Below, in pieces: positions 8,850 to 11,637 of a stretch of 11,637 bases of DNA (the first letter of the stretch is position 1; every line of letters starts with the position of its first letter). The position numbers and the translations under genes are program-made. The notes beneath the pieces were generated by a model. The model ran no database searches. It was not told the DNA's origin and was given only the letters and a program-made list of their open reading frames with translations. This DNA is from an uncultured Flavihumibacter sp. (GTDB taxonomy: Bacteria > Bacteroidota > Bacteroidia > Chitinophagales > Chitinophagaceae): positions 1 through 11,637 of the forward strand of contig CAMLRX010000151.1 of the NCBI GenBank assembly GCA_946482545.1, in the 5' to 3' direction.

Positions 8850-9290
8850 ATGAACAATTCCTCTGCAAAAGTAACCTTTCATTTCCTCGACGTAAAATTT
8901 CCGTTTCGGAACAGGACCCGGTTGAAGAATTTCCTTGTGAAGATGTTTGAATTAGAAGGGAAGGAGGTGGACAGCCTTCAGTATATATTCTGTAGTGACG
9001 AGCACTTGTTGCAGATGAACCGGGATTTCCTTCAGCACGACTATTATACCGACATCATTACATTCGACTTGTCCACTGCTAAGAACGACCCAACTGCGGG
9101 AGAGCTATACATCAGCGTTGACCGGGTGAAGGACAATGCGATAAACTTCGACTCCTCCTTTGAAAGAGAACTTCACCGGGTTGTGTTTCACGGTGTTTTG
9201 CACCTTATTGGCTATAAAGATAAGTCTGAAAAGGACCAGAAGTTGATGAGAAAGAAGGAAGATCAATACCTGAACATCTATTTTAGTTAA
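8850..9290 (+). CDS. ybeY: Endoribonuclease YbeY (rRNA maturation factor)
   Basis: YbeY is a single-domain metal-dependent endoribonuclease involved in 16S rRNA 3'-end maturation and late 70S ribosome quality control. The 146-residue product has the family core: CSDEHLLQMNRDFLQHDYYTDIITFD (48-73), GELYISVDRV (84-93), and the metal site HGVLHLIGYKDK at 114-125. His114 and His118 occupy the two classical ligand positions, while the third, His124 in E. coli YbeY (GYDH), is Asp124 here. The GYKDK wording is familiar from other Bacteroidota, so it is probably a lineage variant and not a defect. The ATG at 8850 gives the expected N-terminus. Its stop codon is followed at once by the first parS site. 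Confidence 0.95.
   Translation: MNNSSAKVTFHFLDVKFPFRNRTRLKNFLVKMFELEGKEVDSLQYIFCSDEHLLQMNRDFLQHDYYTDIITFDLSTAKNDPTAGELYISVDRVKDNAINFDSSFERELHRVVFHGVLHLIGYKDKSEKDQKLMRKKEDQYLNIYFS
8866..8893 (-). promoter_or_regulatory. Candidate feoA-nadD promoter
   Basis: On the minus strand TACTTTTG (8873-8866) is an exact match to the Bacteroidota -7 element TAnnTTTG. A TTTA sits about 19 bases upstream (8896-8893), in place of the ideal TTTG. Transcription would start near 8858 and run into feoA at 8755. The element lies inside the first codons of the divergent ybeY, so the two transcripts would overlap at their 5' ends. Confidence 0.45.
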
Positions 9291-9306
9291 TGTTCCACGT
9301 GGAACA
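9291..9306. promoter_or_regulatory. parS: parS site 1 (ParB binding)
   Basis: TGTTCCACGTGGAACA is a perfect 16-bp palindrome and is identical to the parS sequence known from Pseudomonas; it differs from the B. subtilis type TGTTTCACGTGAAACA at one base in each half. ParB (Spo0J) loads here to build the partition complex. It begins directly after the ybeY stop codon. Confidence 0.9.
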
Positions 9307-9307
9307 G

Positions 9308-9316
9308 TTGTTCACA
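9308..9316 (+). promoter_or_regulatory. DnaA box-like site (8/9)
   Basis: TTGTTCACA differs from the DnaA consensus TTATNCACA only at the third base. It lies one base beyond parS site 1. A single 8/9 match is weak alone and gains weight only from its neighbours. Confidence 0.4.
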
Positions 9317-9399
9317 AGGTATATTTCGTTTGATTTCTATTGATAATCAGTGTTTAAGTTGAAATTGGCCGTAGTTTATAAGCCTTAAATTGATCTGGA

Positions 9400-9408
9400 T
9401 GTGAATAA
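9400..9408 (-). promoter_or_regulatory. DnaA box (perfect consensus)
   Basis: The minus strand reads TTATTCACA, an exact match to TTATNCACA. A weaker plus-strand copy, AGATTCACA (9423-9431, 7/9), faces it, so TGTGAAT and ATTCACA form a 7-bp inverted repeat separated by 18 bp. The pair lies between parS sites 1 and 2. Confidence 0.5.
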
Positions 9409-9474
9409 AGTCGCGCTTGAATAGATTCACACTTCTCTATTAAACAGCATTTAATTAGGCAATTGAGAGAGGAA

Positions 9475-9490
9475 TGTTCCACGTGGAACA
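9475..9490. promoter_or_regulatory. parS: parS site 2 (ParB binding)
   Basis: A second perfect TGTTCCACGTGGAACA, 184 bp start-to-start from site 1. Flanking bases differ from those of site 1, so only the 16-bp core is conserved, as expected for a protein-binding site and not for a duplicated segment. Confidence 0.9.
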
Positions 9491-9531
9491 CGTTTTAATT
9501 TTCTTGTCGTTACCATTTCCAAAAAAACAAA

Positions 9532-9547
9532 TGTTCCACGTGGAACG
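9532..9547. promoter_or_regulatory. parS: parS site 3 (ParB binding)
   Basis: TGTTCCACGTGGAACG matches the parS palindrome at 15 of 16 bases; only the last, least critical base differs. It lies 57 bp start-to-start from site 2, after an A-rich stretch. Confidence 0.87.
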
Positions 9548-9697
9548 TTGAGATAAGCTGGGAGTATAACCCATTTTAAGCACCATAAAGTTGGCAAAGA
9601 ATACGGTTTAAATAGGAGTGCCAATTCGCATTATTAACAGTAAAGTCTCTTTAGTAAGATCGTGTTTTCTCAATCTTCTTTTAAGGTTTCAACCTAA

Positions 9698-9706
9698 TTA
9701 TGCACT
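9698..9706 (+). promoter_or_regulatory. DnaA box-like site (8/9)
   Basis: TTATGCACT matches TTATNCACA except at the last base. It lies 150 bp to the right of the parS cluster in the most AT-rich part of the spacer. Confidence 0.35.
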
Positions 9707-9856
9707 TTAATTCAAGGGAGAAGCGTATCAATATTTACTACTCATGAATAAAAAACCTTAGGCCAACCTGTATAGTTTTAGTCGATTTAAGTTATAAAGT
9801 AAGCGGTAAAAGCAACGATAGCAGGTTTAGTAATGAAAGTATTTTAAGTTTTTAAA

Positions 9857-9914
9857 GCGCTGATGGATAGCGTTTCCCCATTTCTTCTACCGAACGCAGA
9901 AGCTATTGCAGCGC
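9857..9914. repeat. Nested imperfect inverted repeat upstream of the mnmG promoter
   Basis: The outer arms GCGCTG (9857-9862) and CAGCGC (9909-9914) enclose inner arms GCGTT (9870-9874) and AACGC (9893-9897). A competing TAGC (9868-9871) / GCTA (9902-9905) pairing is possible. The structure ends just before the promoter elements of mnmG. There is no T-run, so it is not a typical terminator. Its role is unknown. Confidence 0.3.
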
Positions 9915-9915
9915 C

Positions 9916-9944
9916 TTAACTTATCTTCTAATCGTGTACCTTTG
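9916..9944 (+). promoter_or_regulatory. Candidate mnmG promoter
   Basis: TACCTTTG (9937-9944) is an exact match to the Bacteroidota -7 element TAnnTTTG. The sequence TTAAC (9916-9920) sits about where the -33 TTG would be, but fits only loosely. Transcription would start near 9950, leaving a leader of about a dozen bases before the ATG at 9962 and no Shine-Dalgarno sequence. Confidence 0.5.
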
Positions 9945-9961
9945 CATCCTAAATTATTCCG

Positions 9962-11637
9962 ATGTTTCCTAAGTATGATGTGATAGTGGCAGGTGCTGGT
10001 CACGCAGGTTGCGAAGCGGCAGCCGCTGCGGCAAATCTTGGTTCCAAAGTTTTACTGGTAACCATGAATATGCAGACCATTGCACAGATGAGTTGTAACC
10101 CTGCTATGGGCGGAATTGCTAAAGGACAAATTGTTCGGGAAATAGATGCGTTAGGAGGATACTCCGGTATTGTGACGGATAAGAGTATGATCCAATTCAG
10201 GATGTTGAACCGTTCCAAAGGTCCTGCCATGTGGAGCCCACGTGCACAAAGCGACCGGATGGTATTTGCTGCCACCTGGAGAGAAATGTTAGAGCAGACA
10301 CCTAATGTAGACTTCTACCAAGATATGGTAAAGGAGATTATCGTGAAGGATGGAAAAGCATGTGGTGTGGTTACCGGACTTGGGCACGAAATATTCAGTT
10401 CCAGCGTAGTGATTACAAGCGGTACTTTTTTAAATGGTATCATTCATATTGGAGAAAAGCAATTCGGCGGGGGAAGGGTAGCTGAGAAAGCCGCAACGGG
10501 AATTACTGAGCAACTGGTTGGATTGGGTTTTGAAAGTGATCGTTTGAAAACAGGGACACCACCACGTATAGATGGAAGAAGCCTGGATTATTCCAAAATG
10601 GAAGAACAGAAAGGAGATGAAGAGATTGTTGGATTCTCCTATATGGATGTTCCAAAAATTAAAGCAGCACAACAAAGAAGTTGCTGGATCAGCTATACCA
10701 ACCAGACAGTACATGATATTTTAAAAACCGGATTTGACAGAAGTCCAATGTACGCCGGTAGAATAGAAGGCGTTGGCCCCAGGTATTGTCCCAGCATCGA
10801 AGACAAGATCAATCGTTTTGCCGACCGGGAAAGGCATCAGCTTTTTGTTGAGCCCGAAGGATTCAATACGGTAGAAATCTATGTAAATGGTTTTTCCACT
10901 TCACTCCCGGAAGAAGTTCAGATCGCAGCTTTAAGGCAGGTGCCTGGTTTTGAAAATGTACGCATCTTCCGACCAGGATATGCGATTGAATACGATTATT
11001 TTCCGCCAACACAATTGACTTATTCGCTGGAGACAAAACTGGTTCCGAATCTTTTCTTCGCCGGACAAATCAATGGAACTACAGGTTATGAAGAAGCCGC
11101 CTGCCAGGGATTGATGGCTGGTATCAATGCACACCTCAAAGCCAGGAATGAAGCGCCGTTCATCCTGCAAAGAAGTGAGGCCTATATTGGTGTGTTGATT
11201 GATGACCTTATTTCGAAAGGAACGGACGAGCCGTACCGCATGTTTACTTCCCGTGCTGAATTCAGGACACTGCTTCGACAAGATAATGCGGACCTCCGTT
11301 TGACTGAAAAAAGCTTCCGTTTGGGATTGGCAACAAAAGAAAGGATGGAGCGCATGGAAGAAAAAAGAGACGGTGTTGAAAAAGTAAAAACAACTTTAAA
11401 AGAACTCTCTCTCGATCCATTAACGTTCAACCCTTACCTCGAAAGTATCAATTCTGCACCATTGACGCAAAAGCAAAAGGCCATGCAGGTTTTACTCCGC
11501 CCAAATGTTGACCTTAAAAAAATGGTGAATGCATCCCCTCAACTGGCTGAGACACTTTCTTATGCGGATGATGAAATACTGGAGCAGGCGGAGATTCAGG
11601 TGAAGTATGATGTTTACATCGAAAAGGAAAAAGAATT
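9962..11637 (+). CDS. mnmG: tRNA uridine-5-carboxymethylaminomethyl modification enzyme MnmG (3' end missing)
   Basis: MnmG (GidA) is the FAD-dependent partner of MnmE and adds the carboxymethylaminomethyl group to wobble uridine 34 of certain tRNAs. The frame is open from the ATG at 9962 to the window edge, 558 codons of an expected ~620, so only the C-terminal tail is missing. Landmarks: the FAD-binding GAGHAGCEAA (11-20); MSCNPAMGGIAKG with Cys45; PRYCPSIEDK with Cys276; GTTGYEEAA (372-380); and DEPYRMFTSRAEFR (~422-435). Cys45 and Cys276 correspond to the two conserved cysteines of the family. No frameshift was found at the positions checked. Its location beside parS sites agrees with the frequent origin-proximal position of gidA. 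Confidence 0.97.
   Translation, partial: MFPKYDVIVAGAGHAGCEAAAAAANLGSKVLLVTMNMQTIAQMSCNPAMGGIAKGQIVREIDALGGYSGIVTDKSMIQFRMLNRSKGPAMWSPRAQSDRMVFAATWREMLEQTPNVDFYQDMVKEIIVKDGKACGVVTGLGHEIFSSSVVITSGTFLNGIIHIGEKQFGGGRVAEKAATGITEQLVGLGFESDRLKTGTPPRIDGRSLDYSKMEEQKGDEEIVGFSYMDVPKIKAAQQRSCWISYTNQTVHDILKTGFDRSPMYAGRIEGVGPRYCPSIEDKINRFADRERHQLFVEPEGFNTVEIYVNGFSTSLPEEVQIAALRQVPGFENVRIFRPGYAIEYDYFPPTQLTYSLETKLVPNLFFAGQINGTTGYEEAACQGLMAGINAHLKARNEAPFILQRSEAYIGVLIDDLISKGTDEPYRMFTSRAEFRTLLRQDNADLRLTEKSFRLGLATKERMERMEEKRDGVEKVKTTLKELSLDPLTFNPYLESINSAPLTQKQKAMQVLLRPNVDLKKMVNASPQLAETLSYADDEILEQAEIQVKYDVYIEKEKE

Follow-up and report, generated by a model that had tools for sequence, protein, structure and literature searches.

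Three 16-bp sequences clustered in the gap between ybeY and mnmG are, with very high probability, chromosomal parS sites, that is, a ParB-loaded centromere with the oriC of its chromosome not far away. In the window, by which we mean the whole analysed stretch of 11,637 bp, TGTTCCACGTGGAACA occurs in two exact copies and one copy matching 15 of 16 bases, which start at positions 9291, 9475 and 9532. Copy 1 (9291..9306), a perfect 16-bp palindrome, and copy 2 (9475..9490) are unaltered, while copy 3 (9532..9547) has G for A as its last base (...AACG); no strand is assigned to any of them. The rest of the window contains no further match with up to three mismatches. Among 200 dinucleotide shuffles the mean number of matches was 0.05 and the maximum 2, and three matches were reached in none; chance does not give these three 16-mers. 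Two claims of the sequence-only reading, namely a pair of exact copies plus a 15/16 copy within non-coding DNA at 9291..9547 and a number of copies beyond chance, were thus borne out. The sites have the form of a 16-bp palindrome of the parS type (consensus in PMC7022226 and PMC10197239).

The cluster is located in a non-coding gap of 671 bp (9291..9961, no strand assigned), the longest open reading frame wholly within it having 57 codons, and an Rfam scan of the window revealed no known RNA family at the gathering score of any model. On the left side, ybeY (8850..9290, forward strand) encodes an rRNA maturation RNase (YbeY TIGR00043, 95.6 bits, cut-off 45); its stop codon occupies 9288-9290 and parS copy 1 begins at the next base. 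On the right side, 414 bp separate the end of copy 3 from the ATG (9962) of mnmG, also named gidA, the 5' part of which is present (9962..11635, forward strand; MnmG TIGR00136, 767.1 bits, cut-off 524.85) and which continues past the window end. These scores confirm the names previously given to the two flanking genes. Farther upstream, the forward strand carries a gene for an IPExxxVDY family protein (517-951), a family that does not assign a function, and an open reading frame of 231 amino acids (1196-1891), which begins like a lipoprotein and matched no Pfam family at E 0.001.

Comparison with G044, the closest genome met, the MnmG of which is 98% identical over 558 residues, revealed a footprint of selection on the 16-mers, because all 48 of 48 parS bases are kept while the other bases of the gap diverge. 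Up to position 9920, only 290 of 582 remaining gap bases are identical (204 gapped), and ybeY itself agrees at 232 of 290 bases; the last stretch before mnmG (9921-9961) matches at 36 of 41 bases. In G044, the sites are found at C1:3855053, 3855258 and 3855314, ahead of mnmG at 3855625, and all three copies are identical to those of the window, including the deviant final G of copy 3; copy 1 again follows right behind the ybeY stop codon. This conservation speaks against an origin of the copies as functionless leftovers of repeat expansion or recent duplication, as do the 20-base flanks of the three copies, which have only 3-7 bases in common, pairwise.

A protein that would read these sites is encoded by the relatives of the window. 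In the family sample, ParB was detected in 58 of 60 genomes, and a closer inspection of six genomes identified one strong ParB_N match in each, with two weaker ones in addition in G005. A ParA-type Walker A frame is present at six of six parB loci, and at L083 parA immediately precedes parB. Among solved structures, the ParB of L083 matched ParB/Spo0J chains most strongly (3.4e-47 or better), closely followed by chains of Noc; its top NCBIfam score was obtained with the Noc model TIGR04285, which at 229 bits remained below the cut-off of 315, and the general ParB model was passed. Recognition residues were mapped by spacing onto the Caulobacter numbering of PMC7383237, where R173 and G201 are described to separate the parS class ('RXXG') from the NBS class. 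Q162, K171, R173, N178, K184 and G201 are present in six of six ParBs, which are accordingly classified by sequence as members of the parS class and not of the Noc class because R173 occurs together with G201. Deviations were found at position 172, where each of these ParBs has E, D or N and PMC7383237 describes S, at position 170, which is N or K and not G in three of six, and at position 204, which is K in one. One full-length SMC scoring over its cut-off is encoded in six of six genomes. Absence of a ParB with the parS-recognition helix, which had been named as a finding that would overturn the parS assignment, was therefore not what the relatives showed.

The position of parAB is a different matter. 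A comparison of the sites with parA/parB had been proposed, and the two were not close wherever the distance could be measured: in all ten genomes with both genes on one contig, parB lies at least 0.73 Mb from mnmG, and elsewhere the genes are on separate contigs. A parAB locus adjoining parS and oriC, which is a common arrangement and not a required one, was thus absent from these ten one-contig genomes.

The association of such sites with mnmG extends far beyond the window. In the best 80 of 589 Bacteroidota mnmG loci, we found 135 sites with at most one mismatch to TGTTYCACGTGRAACA near mnmG, distributed over 54 loci, whereas 100 shuffled palindromes searched in the same DNA gave a mean of 0.05 sites and a maximum of 3. 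Seven of the 80 loci carry a site with at most one mismatch elsewhere in the stretch examined. Among the 26 loci lacking a site with at most one mismatch, 9 have a site with CACGTG core and 2-3 mismatches and 17 have none. In whole genomes, the exact site is present in 30 of 60 genomes of the family sample (absent from 30) and in 87 of 118 of the phylum sample (absent from 31), the two samples having three genomes in common; the reversed pattern, used as a control, was present in none of the 60 and in 1 of the 118 genomes. With 'beside mnmG' defined relative to the start of the MnmG match, from 1.3 kb before it to 3.4 kb after it, 29 of the 30 positive family-sample genomes have an exact site beside mnmG, as do 39 of 42 phylum-sample genomes among the matches listed, of 87 genomes. 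Counted by sites, these are 48 of 53 for the family sample and, among the matches listed for the phylum sample, 72 of 75. Exceptions are G125, G133 and G087, in which the listed site is located away from mnmG, and G054, in which the mnmG match is partial and on a different contig from the site. Moreover, 1.6 Mb of DNA sampled from four genomes contained no site with at most one mismatch and two sites with 2 mismatches. An even scatter of the 16-mer around the chromosome, the second finding named as contrary to the parS assignment, was consequently not observed in the relatives; the clustering is seen in the window itself and the confinement to one part of the chromosome in its relatives. Taken together, the conservation against G044, the class of the relatives' ParBs and the clustering at mnmG in relatives argue for the identification of the 16-mer as parS.

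Some loci differ in the number and arrangement of sites. Upstream of mnmG, L061, L071, L090 and L105 have arrays of 7-12 parS-like sites (at most 2 mismatches), more than the window. The Chryseobacterium/Kaistella loci L025, L036, L039, L042, L049 and L056 carry one parS, TGTTTCACGTGAAACA, on either side of mnmG, about 1.9 kb apart.

The placement of the sites around mnmG also bears on the proposal that a transcription factor, or a ParB acting as repressor, uses the palindromes as operators to control mnmG or ybeY. Sites upstream of mnmG in 50 of the best 80 of 589 loci would suit such a function, but sites downstream of mnmG (28 of 80) or within its reading frame (6 of 80) do not have the geometry of operators. 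In Bacteroidota, the consensus of the -7 promoter box is TAnnTTTG. The putative -7 box of mnmG in the window that fits it, TACCTTTG (9937..9944, forward strand), begins 389 bp beyond the end of the last and nearest parS; the window contains five TAnnTTTG matches, below the 10.4 expected by chance. Since the sequence is, in addition, exactly that of parS and ParB is encoded nearly throughout the family sample, we regard control of mnmG or ybeY as very improbable.

Sites within mnmG deserve separate mention. In five of the 80 loci (L009, L010, L015, L021 and L023), a parS-like site is located at mnmG +380, and the encoded protein reads SRGT or SRET there. At the same place without a site, the window has KDGK and four other listed loci have KDGK or KDGR, while two further listed loci differ. 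Sites at about mnmG +380 were also seen in further genomes of the family sample.

This recurrence within mnmG frames also speaks against hairpins acting as intrinsic terminators of ybeY. A pattern scan did flag copies 2 and 3, with 3 terminator-like patterns found against a shuffle mean of 0.5, but copy 1, the one next to ybeY, was not flagged and copy 3 was flagged solely on the opposite strand. Stem length is 5-6 pairs, of which 3 are G-C, and it is the exact 16-mer that is kept, not merely a stem; a terminator function is thus hardly credible. Nor do the many copies in some relatives (13 within 2 mismatches at L061, 9 at L105) lend more than a negligible probability to the idle-repeat origin mentioned above, given the dissimilar flanks and the preservation of the copies in diverging DNA. 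All three explanations were set aside on the basis of site geometry, stem scan, promoter distance and conservation in G044, and the 16-mers are almost certainly, as predicted from their sequence, docking sites for ParB.

The location of parS near the replication origin was assessed in relatives. G023 and G027 each consist of a single contig of genome size. Within 400 kb around parS, the minimum of the cumulative GC skew lies 14.0 kb from parS in G023 and 9.3 kb in G027, and in both genomes the coarse genome-wide skew is lowest at the samples adjoining parS. G003, with its parS at 154 kb, agrees coarsely, the skew reaching its lowest value after the sample at 166-186 kb. G044 was discarded as a proxy for GC skew. 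Its contig C1 comprises only 4.0 of the 4.8 Mb, and neither skew curve places the origin at parS, which is located at 3.855 Mb: the coarse one bottoms out near 3.4 Mb, and the 400-kb one has its minimum at the left edge, at a distance of 247 kb from parS, and a local dip near 3.75 Mb. The claim of the sequence-only reading that the region lies near the origin therefore held against the GC-skew minimum in G023 and G027 and coarsely in G003, with G044 being uninformative.

DnaA boxes, defined by at most one mismatch to TTATCCACA and scored as the best cluster in a 600-bp span within each 400 kb, complement the skew. The best cluster has 12 boxes at +3.9 kb from parS in G023, 6 boxes at +8.8 kb in G027 and 6 boxes at -15.4 kb in G044, so the last genome has its parS near an origin by boxes and not by skew; the distance between cluster and skew minimum is 0.4 kb in G027 and 10 kb in G023. 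In all three genomes, the cluster coincides with the gap immediately upstream of nadA. The corresponding candidate oriC regions of these Chitinophagaceae-type genomes are L259:11181-11685 (6 boxes), L218:3755-4519 (12 boxes) and L238:8676-9267 (6 boxes). The window contains no DnaA-box cluster, only 6 scattered one-mismatch boxes; a cluster placed as in G044, 15.4 kb upstream of parS, would fall past its left end. For the window, both the position of the origin and the presence of ParB are taken from these relatives.

Among the mnmG loci (best 80 of 589), 18 have at least 5 DnaA boxes in 600 bp, and shuffled 9-mers (n = 100) gave at most 2 loci each. In eleven Cytophagales-type and four Chryseobacterium loci among the 18, the boxes cluster in other gaps, 3.7-5.7 kb beyond the start of mnmG. 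The remaining 62 of 80 loci have no cluster of at least 5 boxes in the stretch examined, which reached up to 10 kb on each side. The nadA neighbourhood was rejected as a general rule: nadA was recognised by its motifs in 8 of 80 mnmG loci, and only 2 of these 8 have at least 5 boxes in the 800 bp upstream. The gene dnaA is 0.43-1.95 Mb from parS along the contig in the 4 of 9 genomes searched that have both on one contig.

By analogy with known ParABS systems, in which the steps of ParB clamping, ParA action and SMC loading have been described (PMC8367383, PMC8494293), ParB would bind the three sites and load there as CTP-dependent clamps, which would slide into the flanking DNA of ybeY and mnmG. 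ParA would then move the ParB-DNA complex, and SMC would probably be loaded at the sites. The sites would thereby act as the centromere, at a distance from oriC that was about 4-15 kb in the relatives measured, and the region of the window would be among the first to be segregated.

Already known are parS, its clustering near oriC and, for some species, a dnaA apart from the origin (PMC10197239). gidA and parA are named among the usual neighbours of origins (PMC2768785), and gidA is near oriC in Yersinia and E. coli (PMC10225481). In the open PubMed Central literature, among the matches listed, there was no paper joining mnmG/gidA, parS and Bacteroidota origins, and a parS inside the mnmG frame was likewise not met in print. 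While nothing is unusual about the mechanism, the widespread neighbourhood of mnmG, parS and oriC without dnaA and parAB is newer. We consider it likely that Bacteroidota have an old module of mnmG, parS and oriC from which dnaA and parAB moved away, with the centromere before, behind or inside mnmG and, in the Chitinophagaceae type, an oriC formed by the DnaA-box cluster directly upstream of nadA, and that a parS around codon 127 of mnmG turned KDGK/KDGR into SRGT/SRET in certain lineages. If this is true, a centromere shapes a tRNA-modifying enzyme. The mnmG-parS pair could serve as a marker of origin and centromere readable from sequence in a large, little-studied phylum where dnaA can mislead, with possible use in metagenomic growth-rate estimates based on origins, in setting genome start coordinates and in ParB/SMC experiments. 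In addition, the arrangement provides a natural setting in which to test why parAB can leave the side of its centromere.

In other bacteria, parAB and dnaA are usually found near oriC. The ParABS systems of Bacillus subtilis, Caulobacter and Pseudomonas aeruginosa resemble the one described here in the 16-bp palindrome, which agrees within 1-2 bases, and in the clustering of its copies near the origin, and the relatives of the window likewise possess a ParA-ParB pair, with parS-type recognition residues in ParB, together with SMC; in contrast, parAB and dnaA of Bacteroidota are far from parS where measurable. The origins of Bacteroides caecimuris and Muribaculum intestinale, two of the 12 Oligo-MM12 strains, across which the origin does not always accompany dnaA, were placed by a parS cluster and the switch in GC skew, as here (PMC10197239). 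The parS passages of that source do not mention mnmG. Its two Bacteroidetes are reported to lack any known condensin, whereas full-length SMC is encoded by the six genomes searched here. The Noc/NBS system is similar in that it consists of a ParB paralogue and a site differing from parS at two positions (PMC7383237). An NBS would have A at position 1, C at position 6 and a Noc-type protein with Q173 and R201; the sites described here have the sequence of parS, and the ParBs of the relatives, with R173 and G201, belong to the RXXG class.
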